The translations under genes and the position numbers were made by a program. Below, piece by piece: positions 2,480 through 23,384 of a DNA stretch of 23,495 nt (position 1 is the stretch's first letter; each line of letters opens with the position of its first letter). The DNA is taken from positions 1 through 23,495 of IMG/VR virus record IMGVR_UViG_3300008107_000478. One strand, given 5' to 3'. A model generated the notes under the pieces. The model searched no databases, was not told the DNA's origin, and was given only the letters and a program-made list of their open reading frames with translations. This DNA is from a virus.

Positions 2480-3760
2480 GTGGCTATAATAAGACCATCT
2501 GGTAACTCTAAACTAAAACTATTTACATCTGAATCTGTAACATCTGGACATCCAGACAAGATTTGCGACGCTATCTCAGACGCAATTCTTGATGCTTATT
2601 TAGCAGAAGACCCTGAGAGCAGGGTTGCTGTTGAAACTGCTGTCACGACTGGAGTTGTGTTTGTGTTTGGCGAAGTTTCAAGCCACGCTAGTCCAGACAT
2701 TCGCCAGATTGTTAGAGACACTATTCGCAAGATTGGCTACACATCTTCGGACATTGGCTTTGACGCTGACACCTGTGCTGTCTTTCTAAGCGTTGGTCAG
2801 CAATCTTCAGACATCGCTGATGGAGTGAAAATGTCTGTTGAAGCACGCTCAGGTTCGCACTTGGCAGACGACCAGCAAGGTGCTGGAGACCAAGGAATTA
2901 TGTTTGGTTATGCTACAGATGAGACAGATGAGATGCTGCCTATGCCAATTTACTTGGCACACAAGATTGCTCGCATTTTAGAAAAGGCTAGAACTAGCGG
3001 GTTTCTACCTTATCTAAGACCTGACGGTAAAACTCAAGTAACTGTGGGTTATGACGGCGACATCCCTAAGTCAATTGAAACCATAGTTGTCTCTACACAA
3101 CACGAGCCAAACATTAGCCAAGATGATATTGAGGAAGACATCATTATGCTTGTGCTTCCTATTCTCAAGAAAACTGAGTTGGCAATAAACAATCTAAAAA
3201 TTCTGGTAAATCCAAGTGGTCAATTTATTATTGGTGGTCCAAATGGAGATGCTGGGCTTACTGGTCGCAAAATTATTGTTGATACCTATGGTGGTATGGC
3301 TAGACACGGTGGTGGAGCCTTTTCTGGTAAAGACCCATCAAAAGTAGATAGGTCTGCTGCCTATGCTTTGCGTTGGATTGCTAAGAACATAGTTGCTGCG
3401 AAACTTGCTCGCAGAGTTGAAATTCAGGTCGCTTATGCGATTGGTAAGGCTAATCCAGTCGGTCTATACATCAACACTTTTGGAACTGGTGTAGTGAGTG
3501 ATGACAGATTACTTAGTGCCATTGATAAAGTATTTGACCTTAGACCGTCTGCTATCATAGACGCTCTCCACCTAAAAGAACCTATTTACAGTAGAACTTC
3601 TGCTTACGGACATTTTGGCGACCCAGAACTTCCTTGGGAGAAACTAAATAGAGTGGTAGAACTAACTGACGCAGTAAAAGAACCTACTCAATCTAATTCT
3701 TTCAACTGGGAAGAATTTAGAGAGTGGCTTTATGGTTATGGAAAGGATAACAATGACTAA
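2480..3760 (+). CDS. metK: S-adenosylmethionine synthetase
   Basis: 426 residues, GTG start with AAAGGA about 5 nt upstream. The enzyme makes SAM from methionine and ATP. Family signatures are intact: [14 protein letters not shown] (active-site His near residue 24), [26 protein letters not shown] followed by [13 protein letters not shown], and [16 protein letters not shown]. Length is slightly above a bacterial MetK (about 385) because of a short N-terminal extension and an acidic/aromatic C-terminal tail. It sits directly downstream of two DNA methyltransferases, which use SAM, so it probably raises methyl donor supply during infection (inference). A host-derived auxiliary gene is the simplest origin; its codon use looks like its phage neighbours, arguing against a very recent transfer. 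Confidence 0.95.
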
Positions 3761-4493: not shown

Positions 4494-4626
4494 AGAACTG
4501 GGCGTTGCCATCGACGCTCTTGATGAAAGAGTTGAGTTGCTGGGTGTGGAGATTGAAGTTATTGGAGAGCACATCAAGGCTCTTGGTATGAAAATACAAC
4601 GAGTACAAGAAGAAATGACAGAGTGA
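4483..4626 (+). CDS. Tiny coiled-coil protein
   Basis: 47 residues. The whole length is a heptad-like amphipathic helix: LGVAIDALDERVELLGVEI with Leu/Ile/Val at a/d positions and acidic side chains. It probably dimerises. It overlaps the upstream gene by 11 nt and the following GTG start by 4 nt, which supports real translation. No function can be assigned. Confidence 0.5.
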   Translation: MDAKELGVAIDALDERVELLGVEIEVIGEHIKALGMKIQRVQEEMTE

Positions 4627-5510
4627 AAATTTATATCGCTGGTCCAATGAGCAAAGTGAAAGACTTCAACTTTCCTTTGTTTTTTGAGACGGAAAACAAA
4701 CTAAAAGAACTTGGTTATGAAGTTATCAATCCCGCACATAACGATGGCAAAACTTTAGAAGAGGCTTTGAAAAATGCTGGTAGTCCTGAAAAACCTAGTA
4801 AATCTTGGAGTTCTTATATGCGTAGGGATTTGCCTAGCGTTTTGGCTGTTGATGCTATTTGCGTTTTACCCGATTGGCAAAAGTCTAAAGGTGCTTCGCT
4901 TGAAGTTCATGTCGCAGAAGCGTTAGGGCTACCTGTATATGTTCTCAAAGACGGAAGACTAATTCCTAGAGTAACTGTTATTGGTATTGCTGGCTGGGCT
5001 AGAAGTGGCAAAGACACTATTGCTGATTACTTAGTAAAGAATAAAGGCTACACAAAAGTCTCTTTCTCAACGCCAATGAAAGAAGCGATGTATCGCTTGA
5101 ACCCACGCATAACGGTAAATGAAGTTGTGAACACTCCTTTACGAGTTGGCGTAGATGTTTATGGTTGGGAAGGTCTGAAAGAACGCAGTCCAGATGTTCG
5201 TGGATTACTACAACGCTTTGGAACTGAAGTTGGTCGTGAAATGTTTGATGAAGATTTCTGGGTTGATTATGCTTTGAACTCTATTCCAGATGGTGGAAAA
5301 GTAGTGATAGCAGATGTTAGATATCCAAACGAAGCAGACGCAATAAAAGCGTTGGGTGGAAAAGTGTTTAGAGTGCTAAGAACTGGTGTTGGACCTGCTA
5401 ATGAACACGCTTCTGAACACGCTTTAAATGACTACAAGTTTGACGGTGAGTTCTCTAATGACGGGACAATAGATAATCTTTATTATATCATTGACGAGAA
5501 CATAAGTTAG
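4623..5510 (+). CDS. DUF4406 / deoxynucleoside monophosphate kinase fusion
   Basis: 295 residues, GTG start overlapping the upstream stop by 4 nt. Residues 1-112 are a DUF4406 domain of the nucleoside 2-deoxyribosyltransferase superfamily: MKIYIAGPMS at the start, and KGASLEVHVAEALGLPV with the Glu that serves as nucleophile in related transferases. Residues 116-295 are a P-loop kinase of the phage dNMP-kinase type: Walker A GIAGWARSGKDT (121-132), then SFSTPMKEAM, LLQRFGTEVGR and VVIADVRYPNEADAI. The kinase half would phosphorylate dNMPs for phage DNA synthesis; the first half may make or salvage a (modified) nucleotide. The domains exist separately in phages, so the fusion suggests substrate channelling (inference). 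Confidence 0.85.
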   Translation: MKIYIAGPMSKVKDFNFPLFFETENKLKELGYEVINPAHNDGKTLEEALKNAGSPEKPSKSWSSYMRRDLPSVLAVDAICVLPDWQKSKGASLEVHVAEALGLPVYVLKDGRLIPRVTVIGIAGWARSGKDTIADYLVKNKGYTKVSFSTPMKEAMYRLNPRITVNEVVNTPLRVGVDVYGWEGLKERSPDVRGLLQRFGTEVGREMFDEDFWVDYALNSIPDGGKVVIADVRYPNEADAIKALGGKVFRVLRTGVGPANEHASEHALNDYKFDGEFSNDGTIDNLYYIIDENIS

Positions 5511-5542: not shown

Positions 5543-5887
5543 GTGAGTAATATGCCAAGCAAAGTAATTGTAGGAACGCAGGTGTTCCAAGTAGTTTTAC
5601 GCACTCGTCAAAATGACGGAATGCTCAACGACAATACTTTTGGCTACACGCTTGATACTGAAAATCTCATTGTCATAGACGCTAGCCTTGCTGTGAGCAG
5701 ACAGAAAACAACTTTATTTCACGAAGTTCTACACGCTGTTCGTATGGTGTTTGATACATCTATAAAGCCTAAGAAAACAGACGACTTTGAAGTTTGGGAG
5801 CATTACTTTATTGGTCTTTATGAAGAGGGATTGCTTTTGGTTCTAAGAAACAATCCAGACCTTATGAAATATTTATTAGAAGATTAG
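5543..5887 (+). CDS. Small HExxH metallopeptidase-like protein
   Basis: 114 residues. The motif TTLFHEVLHAVRMVFD (around residues 56-71) has the HExxH zinc-binding signature. The preceding segment ENLIVIDASLAVSRQKTTL matches the strand-helix entry seen in ImmA/IrrE-like and other small phage metallopeptidases. A third zinc ligand is not certain; Glu residues in WEHYFIGLYEEGLL are candidates. Targets of such proteins are usually repressors or other proteins, but no DNA-binding domain is attached here. GTG start, apparently leaderless; ATG at 5552 is an alternative. Last gene of the first rightward block. Confidence 0.65.
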   Translation: MSNMPSKVIVGTQVFQVVLRTRQNDGMLNDNTFGYTLDTENLIVIDASLAVSRQKTTLFHEVLHAVRMVFDTSIKPKKTDDFEVWEHYFIGLYEEGLLLVLRNNPDLMKYLLED

Positions 5888-14207: not shown

Positions 14208-14353
14208 TTGGAAGACCTAAGTGTGGTTTTTGTATGACAGGTAATCACGAGAACTGTAAAAAAGAGATAACCTACTACGAAAAAACTTGGGTGTGTGAGT
14301 GTCCTCATAATCAGGAAAAGAAAGAACAAGATATAAACTTGTCTGGTGATTAG
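14192..14353 (+). CDS. Small zinc-finger-like protein
   Basis: 53 residues, AGAGGG about 3-8 nt upstream of the ATG, overlapping the glycosyltransferase end by 16 nt and the following GTG by 8 nt. CGFCMTGNHENC and VCECPHN provide four or five cysteines plus two histidines in zinc-knuckle spacing. The remainder is charged. Probably a small nucleic-acid or protein-binding factor; function unknown. Confidence 0.55.
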   Translation: MAPEVIGRPKCGFCMTGNHENCKKEITYYEKTWVCECPHNQEKKEQDINLSGD

Positions 14354-14978
14354 TTATTCCATAAGACCTGTTGCGTCAAAAGACGCTAACCAGATGGTTA
14401 TAGAAAATCACTACCTACATCGCCGAGCCAGCACTATGTATGCCTTTGGTCTTTTTGATGGCGATGAAATGCTCGGCTGTGTAATCTATGGAAAGCCAGC
14501 ATCTCCCTCAGTTTGTGTTGGAGTTTGTGGCAAAGATGAATCGGCTAATGTTTTAGAACTCACTAGGTTGTGGATAAAAGATGGCACTCCTAAAAACACA
14601 GAGTCTTATCTCATTGGTCGTAGCCTAAAACTCCTGCCTAAGAACAAAGATATAATAATCTCTTACGCAGAGATTGGTGCTGGTCATATCGGAATTGTGT
14701 ATCAAGCAACCAACTGGATTTACACAGGTATGTCTGACCGCCATGTTGAGTGGCGACTTGATGGAAAAACTGGTTCGCACTCTCGCCACATTTTTGACCA
14801 GCACGGTGGAGTAAATGGCGCAAAAGAATTTTATGGTGATAGACTTGAAAGACACGAGCGGCCGAGAAAGCACCGCTATGTATATTTCAATACAACTTCC
14901 AAAAGAAGAAAAAAAGAACTGCTGGATAAATTGAAATATAAAGTCCAGCCATATCCAAAGAAAGATACACAAAGATGA
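14346..14978 (+). CDS. Mom-like DNA adenine modification protein
   Basis: 210 residues, GTG start overlapping the previous stop by 8 nt. The fold is GNAT-like: ENHYLHRRASTMYAFGLFDGDEMLGCVIYGKP, then VLELTRLWIKDGTPKNTESYLIGRSLKLLPKNKDIIISYAEIGAGHIGIVYQATNWIYTG in sequence, matching the arrangement in phage Mu Mom relatives (LELxRLW, N-ES, YAExGHIGxVYQAxNxxYTG). Mom converts DNA adenine to a carbamoylmethyl form that blocks many restriction enzymes. The C-terminal 50 residues are very basic (RPRKHRYVYFNTTSKRRKKE), fitting DNA contact. The nearby methyltransferases and MetK fit an anti-restriction theme. Family assignment is from motif memory; product chemistry is untested here. Confidence 0.75.
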   Translation: MISYSIRPVASKDANQMVIENHYLHRRASTMYAFGLFDGDEMLGCVIYGKPASPSVCVGVCGKDESANVLELTRLWIKDGTPKNTESYLIGRSLKLLPKNKDIIISYAEIGAGHIGIVYQATNWIYTGMSDRHVEWRLDGKTGSHSRHIFDQHGGVNGAKEFYGDRLERHERPRKHRYVYFNTTSKRRKKELLDKLKYKVQPYPKKDTQR

Positions 14979-18569: not shown

Positions 18570-18687
18570 CTGTGTATCAACGAAAAACACTCCCAAAAAA
18601 AGTTTTGGAAATGGACTTGACAAAGTGGTGAAAATCACTATTGTTGATAGTAGATACAAAAAAGCGTTTTAGATAAGGAGAGACCAA

Positions 18688-19242
18688 ATGAACGCAAACA
18701 CAGAAAAAACAGTAGTTGGCAAGGCACTCTATTTAGAGTTCCGCAAAGACAACTACACCTACCAAATGGTTATCACGCCACCAGCGACTAACGCTGAAGG
18801 TGGGGTAATCCCGGCTTGTGTAATGGAGAGACGACTTTCGTCTTGGCATCCACGCAAGAACTGGAACTTTTCATCAGTTCCAACAACTGGGGACTTCGTT
18901 CTACCTCGTCAAGCGAGTGGCGAGTTCCAGCAAGAGACTGACCTAAATCGTGTAAAGCACATTTCTGCTACACACCTACACAGATTAGTTTCAAAAACCA
19001 TTGACTCACTTATTCACAGAGATTGGAAGTTGTTCAAGCAACCAATCACAGTTGAGGCAACTTACAAGGATGTTGAACTTATCAAATCTGGTAAGACTTC
19101 AAACGAACTTGTTCGTAGGATTGAACGCTCTCGTAAAGCGTTTAATTTCCCAGAGGCGTTATTTGATGCACCTGCACCAGTAGCACCTGCAACACCAACT
19201 GTTGTCACCCTGACACCAGTAACTCCCGGCGTAGCAAGATAA
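18688..19242 (+). CDS. Unknown protein at the head of the AAA+/VWA block
   Basis: 184 residues, AAGGAGA about 7 nt before the ATG. It looks like a beta-rich domain (ALYLEFRKDNYTYQMVITPP, ACVMERRLSSWHPRKNWNFSSV) followed by helices (HLHRLVSKTIDSLIHRDWKLF, NELVRRIERSRKAFN) and a flexible Ala/Pro/Val/Thr tail. No known domain recognised. It lies 14 nt before the AAA+ ATPase and shares a promoter with it, so it may be a partner or substrate of the ATPase (inference). Confidence 0.65.
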   Translation: MNANTEKTVVGKALYLEFRKDNYTYQMVITPPATNAEGGVIPACVMERRLSSWHPRKNWNFSSVPTTGDFVLPRQASGEFQQETDLNRVKHISATHLHRLVSKTIDSLIHRDWKLFKQPITVEATYKDVELIKSGKTSNELVRRIERSRKAFNFPEALFDAPAPVAPATPTVVTLTPVTPGVAR

Positions 19243-19256
19243 GGAGACCAACCAAA

Positions 19257-20291
19257 ATGACTACACCAAACACAAATCCAACCTCACAAGAGTGGGTTGA
19301 AAACCAGCGTAGGATTCACGAGAACCTACCAGTCATGCTCAGCGCAGTTGTTGGGCAAGTTCTAAATCCAGTTGTCGCATCTGACCTAAACTTAGGTTAT
19401 GACGAGACAGCAGGTAAAGCAGTTATTCGCAATCGTGATAACGCCAACACTGAGAAAGCAGGAGTTCAAGTGACGCAAGTCGACGCTCTTGCTGGTGAAA
19501 GTTTTTATGTTCGCCCTAATGGACAGAAATACTTCACTCGTAAGTGGGGGCAACACACAGATGTTGAAGTTGCTCGTAGCCAGCGAGCAAGTGCGACTGG
19601 AAAGTCAATCTTGCTTTATGGTGCACCGGGCACTGGAAAGACAGCAATGTTTGAAGGTGCTTTTGGTGACGACCTAATCACAGTTCTTGGAACTGGCGAC
19701 ACCGAAGTTGGCGACCTAGTTGGTGGCTATGTTCAAACAATCGCTGGTGGCTTTGAGTGGGTGGATGGGCCGCTAGTGCGAGCAGCAGAAGAGGGCAAAG
19801 TCCTACTGATTGACGAGATTGGTTTGATTGACCCCAAAGTTCTTTCAGTCGTCTATGGTCTTATGGATGGTCGTAGAGAACTCAAAGTAACTGCCAACCC
19901 TGAACGAGCAATCGTTAAGGCTAAGGATGGTTTCTTCGTGGTGGCTGCTACTAACCCTAACGCTCCCGGAGTAAATCTTTCTGAGGCTCTACTCTCTCGC
20001 TTTGGTATTCAAGCAGAAATGACTACTGACTGGACACTTGCTCGTAAGTTAGGAGTTCCAGCACAAGCAGTAACTTGTGCACAGAACCTAGCCAAAAAGC
20101 AACAGTCTGATGAAGTCAACTGGTCACCACAAATGCGTGAGTTGCTAGATTACAGAGACATCTCTGCTGAACTTGGTGCAGACTGGGCAGTCTCTAACTT
20201 GATTGCCCAAGCACCAGTTGAAGACAGAGCGATTGTCGCTGATGTATTTACTCGTGTCTATGGCACAGAGTTCAAGCCAGCCAAAATCTAG
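19257..20291 (+). CDS. MoxR/CobS-type AAA+ ATPase
   Basis: 344 residues. Walker A GAPGTGKT (122-129), Walker B VLLIDE (182-187), sensor region AATNPNAPG (230-238) and SRF with an arginine-finger candidate (near 247-249) are all present. The GDLVGGY and DGPLVRAAEEGKVLLIDEI surroundings are typical of the MoxR/CbbQ/CobS group, ATPases that work with VWA-domain proteins to remodel targets or insert metals. A 105-residue N-terminal region without obvious motifs could select substrates. It precedes the HExxH/VWA gene, its expected partner. AAGGAGA lies about 9 nt upstream. Confidence 0.85.
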   Translation: MTTPNTNPTSQEWVENQRRIHENLPVMLSAVVGQVLNPVVASDLNLGYDETAGKAVIRNRDNANTEKAGVQVTQVDALAGESFYVRPNGQKYFTRKWGQHTDVEVARSQRASATGKSILLYGAPGTGKTAMFEGAFGDDLITVLGTGDTEVGDLVGGYVQTIAGGFEWVDGPLVRAAEEGKVLLIDEIGLIDPKVLSVVYGLMDGRRELKVTANPERAIVKAKDGFFVVAATNPNAPGVNLSEALLSRFGIQAEMTTDWTLARKLGVPAQAVTCAQNLAKKQQSDEVNWSPQMRELLDYRDISAELGADWAVSNLIAQAPVEDRAIVADVFTRVYGTEFKPAKI

Positions 20292-20353
20292 GTCTCCGAT
20301 TTTGGCTCGTGTGTGGGGTGGCTTACCCTTAGATTTCCGCCCCACACACACCC
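20277..20353 (+). other. Tandem hairpins after the AAA+ gene
   Basis: AGCCAAAATC (20277-20286) pairs perfectly with GATTTTGGCT (20296-20305), spanning the stop codon. A second hairpin pairs GTGTGTGGGGTGG with CCGCCCCACACAC (about 20308-20352) through one G-U. Neither is followed by a U tract, so these may be RNA-stabilising or attenuating rather than simple terminators. Confidence 0.6.
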
Positions 20354-20361
20354 TAAAAATC

Positions 20362-20403
20362 TGGGAATAAATCTTGACATTTTTTAGTTTTATACAGTAA
20401 AGT
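20362..20403 (+). promoter_or_regulatory. Promoter of the HExxH/VWA gene
   Basis: GGGAATAAAT (20363-20372), TTGACA (20374-20379), then TATACA (20391-20396) and TAAAGT (20398-20403). TTGACA-N18-TAAAGT is a standard promoter. The GGGAATAAAT box is shared with the promoters at 18539 and 23402. AAAAGGAG precedes the ATG at 20431. Confidence 0.7.
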
Positions 20404-20430
20404 AGTAGTAACAAGAAAAGGAGTTCAGAA

Positions 20431-22326
20431 ATGAGCCACTACAAAGTAAGCACCAAAACCATTGGTCGCACCCACCCTGACTGGTTGAAAGTCAATGCCA
20501 GCGTTGGCAAGATTGTCAACAAATGGTCGCTACGCCAAGACCTAGTTGTAGGTCTAGTTGAGGACACCACCATTGGTGCACCTGCGTGTTTCAATCCTGC
20601 CACAGCAGAGATTGAAGTTTGTATCAGCAAAGCGTTTGGCAATGTTGAGCCAAAAGAAGTTGGCGAACTTACACACCGAAAAAATCAACTTAAGCACCCA
20701 ACTGCTACTGGTGCTATTTTCCACGAGGCACTCCACGCTAGGATTTCTCGCTGGTCATTAGAGCAAGCAGCAAAAGATTTAGATGCAAGACACTTGCGTT
20801 TCTTGCATGCTATGGAAGAGGGTCGCATTGAGTATTGGGGTTGCGTATTTGTTCCAGAGAACAGATTGCTACTTCGTGCTTGTGCAATGGAAATCGTTAT
20901 GGCAGAACTTGACGAGCAAGTTAAAAATGTTTCAAAAGTAGACGCTGCTGCCTTTACTGCTCTGCTCACTCTTGCGAGAGTAGACGCTGGCGTTTTGGAT
21001 GCAAATGATGTTCCAGAAGTTGTTATGGAAATCCTGCACGAGGTTCTTGGTAAAGAGACCATTGACCAGTTGCGTGAAATCTGGAAAGAGTTCCAAGCAC
21101 ACAGCGACCACGAAAACGCATTACCACTTTACGAACTTACAAATCGTTTCATTGAAGTTCTTGATGCACGCAAAGATGAAGTTGGCGAGAAACCAACTGA
21201 AACACCAAAAGGTGGTTGCGAGTATCCGGGTGGAGAGAGTGGCACACCAGAACCGGGCACATCAAAGCCGAGCGAGGATGGCACACCTACACCAAGCAAC
21301 GAACCTACTGACGAGCAAGTCAAGCAGTTCAAGAAGTTCATTGAGCAAGTCAAAGACGCAGTTGAAGAAATGAAAGACATTGTTCAGATTGCCAACCAAG
21401 ACGACATCAATGACGAGATTGACATGGATGAACGCAAAGAAGAAGTCGAGCAAAGAGACAAAGCACACGAAGAAAAGAAACATCGTGACAAGATTGCTGA
21501 CGAAGTTTTCTCTGCTGGTTCTCACATAACTGGAATTAGAACCAACTCTGTTCTTCAAGACTCTCGCTCACCTAAGCCAGAAGAACTGGCAGCAGCCAAC
21601 AAAGTTGCTAACGCTTTGCGTAAAGCAAAGTATCGTGAGCGTTCACAAGTTCGTGCTGGTAGCGTTGTTCCACCTGGTCGCTTGCGTTCTCGTGCAGTTG
21701 TTCAGCGTGAGGCTCTTAAGGCTAAGGGTGTTGTATCTCCGATTGAAACTTGGAGACGCACACAGCGTAAGCAAACAGAAGACCCAACATTAAAGGTTGG
21801 CGTTATGGTGGACATTTCTGGTTCTATGAAACCAGCAATGCAACCAATGGGCATTACTGCGTGGATTATGTCAGAGGCAGTTCGTAGGATTCAGGGCAAG
21901 TGTGCAATGGTCTATTACGGTCAGAATGTATTTGCCACTCTTAAGCCGGGACAGAAGTTGGACAAAGTGAAGACTTTCACTGCCACCGACTCAACCGAAG
22001 AGTTTGCCAAAGCGTTCAAGGCTCTTGACAGTGGCTTGGGTCTAACCAGTGGAGACGGTGCGAGATTGCTCGTAGTTGTTTCTGACGGTAGATACCGTAG
22101 CGACCAGCAAGCATACGCCAAGCAGTTGCTCAAAGAGGCTGACCGTAAGGGCGTGGCTATCTTGTGGCTGACATTTGACGGTAAGACTGGCTACGCTAAG
22201 TCATACCTAGACGGAACAAGTGGCGAGATTGTATCGCTCAACAGCACCGAGTCGCCAGTCAAAGCAGCGCAGGTAATCGGACAGACCGCGGCCAAAGTGG
22301 TCTCGGCAATCGGCTCACGAGTCTAA
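20431..22326 (+). CDS. HExxH plus VWA protein, CobT-like partner of the AAA+ ATPase
   Basis: 631 residues. The N-terminal part carries a zinc-peptidase motif FHEALHARI (HEALH at 98-102) and AMEEGRIEYW (E129/E130 as possible third ligand). A Pro/Gly/Ser/Thr-rich linker (about 255-295) and a highly charged coiled segment (about 295-355) follow. The C-terminal VWA domain has the metal-ion site DISGSM (461-466) and VVVSDG (near 548-553). VWA proteins with MoxR ATPases form remodelling or chelatase-like complexes; the metallopeptidase-like motif suggests proteolysis or metal handling. The mixed architecture resembles phage genes labelled CobT-like, but the biological role is unproven. Own promoter and strong ribosome site. 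Confidence 0.85.
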   Translation: MSHYKVSTKTIGRTHPDWLKVNASVGKIVNKWSLRQDLVVGLVEDTTIGAPACFNPATAEIEVCISKAFGNVEPKEVGELTHRKNQLKHPTATGAIFHEALHARISRWSLEQAAKDLDARHLRFLHAMEEGRIEYWGCVFVPENRLLLRACAMEIVMAELDEQVKNVSKVDAAAFTALLTLARVDAGVLDANDVPEVVMEILHEVLGKETIDQLREIWKEFQAHSDHENALPLYELTNRFIEVLDARKDEVGEKPTETPKGGCEYPGGESGTPEPGTSKPSEDGTPTPSNEPTDEQVKQFKKFIEQVKDAVEEMKDIVQIANQDDINDEIDMDERKEEVEQRDKAHEEKKHRDKIADEVFSAGSHITGIRTNSVLQDSRSPKPEELAAANKVANALRKAKYRERSQVRAGSVVPPGRLRSRAVVQREALKAKGVVSPIETWRRTQRKQTEDPTLKVGVMVDISGSMKPAMQPMGITAWIMSEAVRRIQGKCAMVYYGQNVFATLKPGQKLDKVKTFTATDSTEEFAKAFKALDSGLGLTSGDGARLLVVVSDGRYRSDQQAYAKQLLKEADRKGVAILWLTFDGKTGYAKSYLDGTSGEIVSLNSTESPVKAAQVIGQTAAKVVSAIGSRV

Positions 22327-22338
22327 TCGGCTCGTGTA

Positions 22339-22407
22339 GAAGTAGGGGCTGGCAAGAGAACGGCTAGCCCTTACTTCAAACCTTAACGGCAAGCCTAACG
22401 GCTTGCC
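22339..22407 (+). other. Tandem hairpins after the VWA gene
   Basis: GAAGTAGGGGCTGGC (22339-22353) pairs over 15 positions with GCTAGCCCTTACTTC (22363-22377), with two G-U. GGCAAGCC (22388-22395) pairs perfectly with GGCTTGCC (22400-22407) around TAAC. No U tract follows either. The arrangement mirrors the pair after the AAA+ gene. Confidence 0.65.
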
Positions 22408-22434
22408 TTAGATAGAAAGAATAGGAGACTAACG

Positions 22435-23099: not shown

Positions 23100-23384
23100 A
23101 TGCAATACTCAACTCTTTTTCCAAAGGTAACCCTAGTAAAGCGTTCACAGGGACAGCGTGGGCAGTATGGGGCTAGAAAAGCCTACATGATTTACATAAG
23201 GCAGTTAAACCCCACAGGGCGTTGGTGCGTCTTTATGTCTTGGGGCAGAGAAGAAGCACCTAACTCTTGGATGGGCAGTGAAAAGATTTTTGCGACAGAG
23301 CAGGAGGCAGTTGCTTTTGCTTGGGATAAGTTCTACGAAAAGATTGACAAAGGCTACACAGAAAAAGTCTTGAAAAATAGTTAA
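23100..23384 (+). CDS. WGR-like domain protein
   Basis: 94 residues from ATG 23100, picked for GGAG 5 nt upstream; ATG 23070 adds ten residues. The region KAYMIYIRQLNPTGRWCVFMSWGREE...KIFATEQEAVAFAWDKFYEKIDKGY shows the WGR-domain pattern: strand, W-G-R, then a helix ending in KGY. WGR domains are thought to bind nucleic acid or proteins. A stand-alone small WGR protein in a phage might act as a DNA-contacting regulator. The assignment is from motif pattern only. It lies between two shared-box promoters. Confidence 0.6.
   Translation: MQYSTLFPKVTLVKRSQGQRGQYGARKAYMIYIRQLNPTGRWCVFMSWGREEAPNSWMGSEKIFATEQEAVAFAWDKFYEKIDKGYTEKVLKNS

Follow-up and report, generated by a model that had tools for sequence, protein, structure and literature searches.

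What part is played by a small protein of no known family whose gene stands directly before those of an AAA+ ATPase and a VWA-domain protein in a phage? The question is raised by three consecutive forward-strand open reading frames (ORFs) in the window analysed here, the whole of a 23,495-nucleotide (nt) stretch of viral DNA (IMG/VR record IMGVR_UViG_3300008107_000478, positions 1 to 23,495), which encode proteins of 184, 344 and 631 residues (Table 1). The pair pointed out in an initial annotation of this DNA is real, but AAA+/metallopeptidase-VWA pairs are already on record for other phages (PMC7824862, PMC8651126), which that annotation missed along with the possible likeness of the companion to WGR domains. 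What appears to be new here is the small third partner of the known phage pair, together with the occurrence of WGR proteins in the same slot on actinobacterial plasmids. The reading that we tentatively favour, at a little below an even chance, is that the three genes form one ATP-driven remodelling machine whose client is chosen by the 184-residue adaptor and is cleaved or disassembled, probably on nucleic acid.

Among 80 viral loci with a VWA gene, the 184-residue homologue, the AAA+ gene and the VWA gene are all present in that order in 74, and in the other six the contig ends before the missing upstream gene. Since the best 80 of 265 viral loci and the best 80 of 185 actinobacterial genome loci were kept, the counts given here hold for the closest relatives; the loci include near-identical copies, and distinct companion ORFs number 68 in all. 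The first two genes are separated by 14 nt in the window, and the corresponding gap measures 5-50 nt in 68 loci of the 74 and 207 nt in another. In the remaining five the two ORFs, whose starts were taken as the first possible ones, seem to overlap. The 184-residue protein is a fixed partner of the pair in this group, in every complete locus examined, which bears out its conservation beside the pair as raised in the initial annotation. A search of whole records found the family in all three Microbacterium phages and in Actinomycetia phage DSL-LC01, and a homologue in another Microbacterium phage (E = 2.5e-9) brings the total to four of the four examined. In Pumpernickel and a second Microbacterium phage, the two whose flanks were read, the companion lies directly before the AAA+ gene though the VWA gene lies elsewhere; therefore, the companion goes with the AAA+ gene. 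It can also be observed that in Pumpernickel two adjacent genes directly before the AAA+ gene match the family (L250:829-1718), the first in part only (E = 1.5e-4).

The pair itself is well defined. The AAA+ protein matches Pfam AAA_5 (E = 7e-21) and the PHROG families "ATPase" (E = 2e-56) and "porphyrin biosynthesis" (E = 2e-24), and midasin, NorQ and CbbQ rank first when its profile is compared with the PDB. Judged by these sequence comparisons, it is of the CbbQ/NorQ/midasin/CobS type, so that the label MoxR used in the initial annotation is right in a broad sense. In a tree of 36 chosen rows, which included six of the 80 genome loci and several long outgroup branches, it groups with actinobacterial relatives and apart from the CobS rows, the joining fork having moderate support (81/88). 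Related AAA+ proteins are present in 509 phage records. An HslV partner was considered for this ATPase, since the record of DSL-LC01 annotates one, and was rejected, as Pfam Proteasome exceeded its cut-off in none of 18 records.

The model of the 631-residue protein (predicted local distance difference test, pLDDT, 85.1; predicted template modelling score, pTM, 0.65) consists of three parts. Its match to Pfam VWA_CoxE (E = 5e-5, 23.4 bits) lies below the Pfam cut-off of 26.4, whereas the 50 best structural matches of the model are nearly all VWA/MIDAS domains (Z = 14.9-17.6). Among these are the MIDAS domain of Rea1/midasin (Z = 17.6, root-mean-square deviation (rmsd) 3.2 over 199 residues) and the VWA domain of NorD (Z = 15.8, rmsd 12.2 over 237 residues). 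Together with the AAA_5 match, the Walker motifs and the DISGS motif, these matches confirm the AAA+/VWA pair. In the predicted N-terminal domain, strands are followed by the helix that carries HExxH (residues 90-105) and then by the helix at 119-140. HEALH and EEGRIE, suggested in the initial annotation as a possible zinc site, are present and are not a chance occurrence: H98, E99, H102, E130, R132 and E134 do not vary among nine phage proteins, whose identity falls as low as 23%, or among 57 viral ones (alignment A5, 57 of 63 VWA proteins). The full HEALH...EEGRIE-type motif is retained in 80 of 81 distinct phage or viral VWA proteins of at least 500 residues, the remaining one being a frame-broken copy with its N-terminus in a separate ORF. 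Furthermore, a looser pattern, in which W, K or Q is allowed for R, is found in all 80 actinobacterial loci, and thus the HExxH conservation on which the suggestion had been staked holds in the homologues. The two motifs constitute a conserved, putative zinc-protease-like site; HExxH with a downstream Glu, which is present and conserved here, we take to be the signature of a zincin or gluzincin. HExxH with a similar second motif also occurs in the partners of cyanophage P-SSM4, pelagiphage HTVC008M and Gordonia phage Hanem, and in the Vibrio phage JPW partner HExxH is present but the second motif is missing.

Several observations on the pair stand on their own. The VWA gene is matched at 100% identity in four IMG/VR contigs, one of them of 135 kb and one with a broken frame. 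In the near-identical relative on IMGVR contig 3300008114_000097 (L005, L012, L020, L101), the VWA gene is split into two ORFs, either by an assembly error or because the gene is broken. The AAA+ and VWA parts share one 979-residue frame in Streptomyces odonnellii (L186:4702-7641), which is a natural fusion or a sequencing error. In two relatives the AAA+ and VWA genes are separated by an ORF resembling GIY-YIG/NUMOD3 homing endonucleases (L087:5426-5968 and L090:1926-2462), and in one by a tRNA-Ile gene (anticodon TAT; L081:5568-5643).

The companion was characterized from alignment A4, which comprised 58 of 59 near-distinct viral companions (L040 and L001 left out). Gly11, Tyr15, Glu17, Gln26, Pro31, Arg48, Trp59 and Arg144 are invariant in this family, and the model built from A4 reached a pLDDT of 91.2 and a pTM of 0.80. 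The protein itself had no match in PHROGs, Pfam, NCBIfam or PADLOC, in agreement with the absence of a known family in the initial annotation. Its 58 relatives gave scattered weak matches, none convincing, with a best Pfam E value of 0.0078 and a best PHROG E value of 0.005 among 25 of 44 matches. A PDB sequence match that would make the protein a decarboxylase (E = 0.0027) covers 42 profile positions only and is not believed. No paper describing a third partner of the pair was found in a literature search that reached few subscription papers.

A clearer picture of the slot before the AAA+ gene is obtained from actinobacterial relatives. On the plasmids of two Streptomyces, a Pseudonocardia and a Streptosporangium (L143, L144, L145, L150), a gene annotated as a WGR domain-containing protein is followed by the AAA+ gene and then by a VWA (or hypothetical) gene, and in Streptomyces sp. 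NBC_00637 (L153) the WGR domain is fused to the AAA+ protein (Pfam WGR E = 1.3e-5). In actinobacterial genome contigs, an AAA+ ORF stands beside the VWA gene in 79 of 80 loci, the other contig being cut there. In six of the 80 loci a WGR profile matches an ORF whose end falls immediately before the AAA+ domain or at it. About 10 of 12 AAA+ N-termini from genome loci appear winged-helix-like by eye; two that were scanned matched Pfam MarR_2 below its cut-off (E = 0.006 and 0.013). The cassettes share with the phage trio the gene order, the zincin-VWA protein and a related AAA+ protein (41-46% identity over 71-94% of the query). They differ in the third gene, which is a recognizable WGR domain in the cassettes, whereas the phage protein is divergent and unrecognized by Pfam. 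From this we infer that the slot before the AAA+ gene may hold a targeting module of nucleic-acid type.

The predicted fold of the 184-residue protein weakly resembles WGR folds. In a Foldseek search of viral models (BFVD), the second match is a phage protein labelled "WGR_MMR_like" with a probability of 0.96. Much weighs against carrying this likeness further, and with it against the favoured reading. The E value of that match is 0.022, with template modelling (TM) scores of 0.37/0.46 and an rmsd of 13; the top match is an unnamed 145-residue protein (E = 5e-4), and both superpose poorly (TM 0.26-0.46, rmsd 13-14). Plain Foldseek gave no significant PDB match for the model, and PARP2/3 WGR domains scored Z = 4.4-4.9, no better than unrelated folds (5.7 and 5.2). 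Pfam WGR (PF05406) was not among the 21 families matched by the 58 companions at E <= 1, in a scan where HMMER filters drop most matches above about 0.1. The comparison of the family profile with WGR proteins was not significant either (hhalign E = 0.073 and 0.1). The probability obtained with the real WGR alignment, 0.8%, was reached by seven of 100 column-shuffled WGR alignments (highest 5.6%), and two reversed alignments gave 0.0 and 0.1. Membership of the WGR family was dropped because neither the Pfam nor the profile tests placed the protein there; the likeness is kept as a lead on fold and position only. Two bridges to WGR were also tried. The third proteins of Gordonia phages (alignment A10) gave E = 0.24, and the N-terminal extension of the AAA+ protein at L151 gave E = 0.18 against the 184-residue family and E = 0.022 against WGR, so that neither provided a significant link. 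In these Gordonia phages (L003, L017, L018), each AAA+ protein has a long extension at its N-terminus, and the AAA+ and VWA genes flank the gene of a different protein, of 227-276 residues, in which no similarity to the 184-residue family was found. A second WGR-domain gene, recognizable as such (Pfam E = 1.2e-4, just over cut-off), lies downstream of the trio at 23100-23384 (+); it was left out of the unit because its distance and side vary among relatives.

The one-machine reading is drawn from the order of the trio in 74 of 80 loci, from the retention of the zinc motif in phage and actinobacterial proteins alike, and from WGR in the slot on plasmids. Its mechanics follow a precedent: for NorQ/NorD, PMC13036017 describes a "finger-in-pore" arrangement in which the VWA domain inserts a finger into the pore of the AAA+ protein and the linker is twisted and stretched as ATP is hydrolysed. 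By analogy, ATP hydrolysis by the phage AAA+ protein would pull or twist the linker of the VWA protein, and this movement would drive the zincin-like domain against a client, which would be cleaved or taken apart. The 184-residue protein would serve as the targeting adaptor. During infection the client would most likely be a DNA- or RNA-bound protein, because the adaptor slot in actinobacterial relatives holds WGR or, fused to the AAA+ protein, a winged-helix-like stretch. Besides the WGR tests, three further results count against this proposal. The zincin fold of the N-terminal domain went unmatched, in a fold search of the whole model that was filled by the VWA domain. The 184-residue family was not found in the three Gordonia phages or the three plasmids covered by the whole-record search. 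Moreover, a VWA relative on a Rhodococcus plasmid (L146:7925-9715) has lost HExxH and kept MIDAS; therefore, proteolysis is not essential everywhere. The gene of this relative lies beside an AAA+ gene and one for an ATPase annotated to double-strand break repair.

In a bolder form, which we consider improbable, the trio would be a phage-borne ATP-powered protease that strips or cuts DNA-bound proteins, the AAA+ ring driving the zincin-VWA arm, which would be aimed by an exchangeable module for nucleic-acid recognition (WGR, winged helix or the divergent 184-residue protein). In eukaryotes, DNA-protein crosslinks are cleared by protease/AAA+ pairs such as SPRTN/Wss1 with p97. The phage machine would be their prokaryotic and viral counterpart, in logic and not in descent.

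Other explanations lead to different clients or to none. The pair could act as chaperone and protease on phage structural proteins, with the 184-residue protein as a structural adaptor, a role which PMC7824862 proposes for the jumbo-phage MoxR-vWA pair, whose vWA protein has an N-terminal metallopeptidase domain. The location of the genes agrees with virion assembly or processing, as in the window the trio is preceded by a terminase-small-subunit-like gene (PHROG E = 2e-5) and an endolysin gene, and in DSL-LC01 the genes for the terminase large subunit and the portal lie some 14 kb downstream of it. In the two Microbacterium phages whose flanks were read, however, the AAA+ and 184-residue genes lie amid nucleotide-metabolism genes, partner domains of a WGR or winged-helix-like kind give no hint of a virion role, and relatives of the pair occur in actinobacterial genomes (80 loci) and plasmids, some of which may be prophages or phage-plasmids. 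A virion role is regarded as somewhat unlikely. That the companion is a neighbour with a job of its own, kept by operon inheritance only, would be in keeping with the failure of profile tests to tie it to WGR and with the origin of the 74 complete loci, which come from related phages and include near-identical copies. The phages in which it precedes the AAA+ gene in the absence of an adjoining VWA gene speak against mere inheritance, as does the WGR domain that occupies the same slot in plasmids and is once fused to the AAA+ protein; we find this explanation distinctly unlikely.

A cobalt chelatase is the remaining candidate: the pair would act as CobS/CobT with the CobN of the host, boosting cobalamin for a B12-dependent ribonucleotide reductase of the phage. 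Such a role is proposed in PMC8651126 for tailed viruses with cobST. The VWA gene of DSL-LC01 is annotated "cobalamin biosynthesis protein", the porphyrin PHROG is matched by the AAA+ protein as described above, and a PHROG bearing the name of the cobaltochelatase CobT subunit has weak matches to three VWA relatives out of 57 (best E = 0.0037). The B12-dependent reductase model (TIGR02505) matches 13 of 14 trio-bearing records, 11 of them over cut-off; the same model also matches eight of 14 control genomes, one over cut-off. Yet it matches none of the four Microbacterium and Gordonia records, which carry AAA+ and VWA relatives, and CobN was not found in any of 18 phage records, some of which may be fragments and whose hosts could supply it. 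The window proteins gave no CobS/CobT model among their NCBIfam matches (E <= 0.01), and the VWA protein gave no match to PF06213 or CobT_C (PF11775) in Pfam (E <= 1). The separate branch of the AAA+ protein, read with its moderately supported fork and the long outgroup branches, points the same way. A search for cellular CobT in one phylum returned two matches in 149 genomes, one over cut-off; this protein (L234), the only one examined, is CobT-like and lacks HExxH. Furthermore, the 184-residue protein has no role in cobalt insertion. This explanation is only weakened, because the B12-dependent reductase co-occurs, and we judge it improbable.

The preferred remodelling machine can be compared with known systems of several kinds. 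The group 2.2 jumbo-phage MoxR/vWA pair, likened here by its description, also combines an AAA+ ATPase with a vWA protein that has an N-terminal metallopeptidase domain; no third conserved protein is named in the accessible part of PMC7824862, whereas here the 184-residue partner is fixed upstream and WGR occupies that position in some relatives among actinobacteria. An AAA+ protein and a VWA partner likewise make up the CobS/CobT systems of cyanophages, pelagiphages, Vibrio phage JPW and archaeal tailed viruses (PMC8651126), and the partners in P-SSM4, HTVC008M and JPW also have HExxH. In these three phages, however, the VWA gene precedes the AAA+ gene, and the AAA+ branch is separate; the window proteins match no CobT/CobS model, whereas the JPW partner matches CobT_C (E = 8e-29). 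NorQ/NorD and CbbQ/CbbO share the AAA+ type and the VWA fold and differ in that the N-terminal domain here is predicted to be zincin-like and that no nitric oxide reductase or rubisco gene was noticed nearby. In the yeh cluster of E. coli, WGR (YehF), MoxR (YehL) and VWA (YehP) genes also occur in one cluster, but YehP lacks HExxH, YehL forms a very long tree branch and yehF and yehL are not neighbours. A third conserved protein besides MoxR and vWA is likewise found in VMAP and other MoxR-vWA ternary conflict systems (PMC7159879); the term WGR is absent from the accessible portion of that paper. Unlike them, the 184-residue family has no such Pfam match and the 184-residue protein no PADLOC match, the presence of a VMAP model in these libraries having been left unchecked. 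A known defence system was rejected, as PADLOC gave weak P-loop matches only (IetA, MkoA and others); the plasmid WGR protein matched WGR_XIII (E = 0.007).

Table 1. Coordinates of the trio, its motifs and the surrounding expression signals in the window
Feature	Position	Strand	Evidence and remarks
Companion, 184 residues: compact alpha/beta domain (about residues 5-158) and Pro/Thr-rich tail; WGR-like predicted fold (weak)	18688-19242	+	A4, model, fold comparisons
AAA+ ATPase, 344 residues	19257-20291	+	Pfam, PHROG, PDB profile search, tree
Walker A, GAPGTGKT	19620-19643	+	Read from sequence; such a P-loop in 72 of 75 distinct AAA+ ORFs
Walker B, LLIDE	19803-19817	+	Read from sequence; D186 and E187 kept by every member of A6 (33 of 54 AAA+ proteins)
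Zincin-like VWA protein, 631 residues: predicted N-terminal zincin-like domain (about 1-250), linker and long helix (about 255-361), VWA (about 367-631)	20431-22326	+	Pfam, model, fold search
HEALH, residues 98-102: putative zinc site on predicted helix 90-105	20722-20736	+	Sequence, alignments, model
EEGRIE, residues 129-134: putative third ligand on predicted helix 119-140	20815-20832	+	Sequence, alignments, model
MIDAS motif DISGS, residues 461-465	21811-21825	+	Read from sequence; in 81 of 83 distinct ORFs, the other two being fragments
Promoter-like TTGACA-16-TATTGT before companion gene	18617-18644	+	Total of such sites not above chance
13-pair hairpin between AAA+ and VWA genes	20309-20349	+	z = -2.58 for the 142-nt intergenic stretch
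Promoter-like TTGACA-18-TAAAGT before VWA gene	20374-20403	+	Such a site in 17 of 65 distinct relatives
Two hairpins after VWA gene (about 22339-22377 and 22383-22411)	22339-22411	+	z = -5.80

Strong hairpins and separate promoters between the genes, and hence expression in fixed ratios, had been assumed in the initial annotation. The hairpins stand after the AAA+ and VWA genes (Table 1), and none lies in the 14 nt between the first two genes. Within 80 nt after the AAA+ gene, a stem, defined as a run of at least nine paired bases on one side, occurs in 59 of 64 distinct relatives, the corresponding figures being 119 of 320 for shuffled sequences and 118 of 320 for coding windows. Such a pattern would be consistent with attenuation or termination downstream of the AAA+ gene. 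Separate promoters were rejected: between 18450 and 23495 four promoter-like sites were found against 4.3 expected, three of the four in forward-strand gaps before genes, and the site before the VWA gene recurs in a minority of relatives. Fixed expression ratios are left unsupported by these signals.

Regarding the source of the DNA, we take the window phage for a probable member of an actinophage group, because WhiB is present in all 18 related records searched and because DSL-LC01 (Dishui Lake), whose host is predicted to lie within Actinomycetia (PMC10611076), is among the relatives; among 14 control genomes WhiB was matched in Corynebacterium only. Elsewhere in the window, a protein at 14346-14978 (+) matches the Mom DNA-modification family (Pfam PF25680, E = 1.3e-45), an adenine-methyltransferase-like ORF lies at 558-2447 with a second one, seen by eye, at 2-565, and a full-length MetK is encoded at 2480-3760 (TIGR01034, E = 1e-163). 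It is possible that these genes form a DNA hypermodification set. A small protein at 5543-5887 (+) has a second HExxH (HEVLH), and its resemblance to the M78/IrrE family and to the putative metallopeptidase family DUF6782 is weak, neither match reaching the cut-off; at 4623-5510 (+) a deoxynucleotide monophosphate kinase is fused to a DUF4406 domain.

Pairs of AAA+ and VWA genes are frequent in phages, with a cobalamin or porphyrin function often assigned to the AAA+ gene, although the function of cobS in phages is called uncertain in PMC11288001. A fixed third component, in a slot held by WGR in relatives, provides a handle on what the machine acts on. If the target were a nucleoprotein, the "cobS/cobT" annotations in many phages, and the inferences on B12 metabolism derived from them, would need revision.

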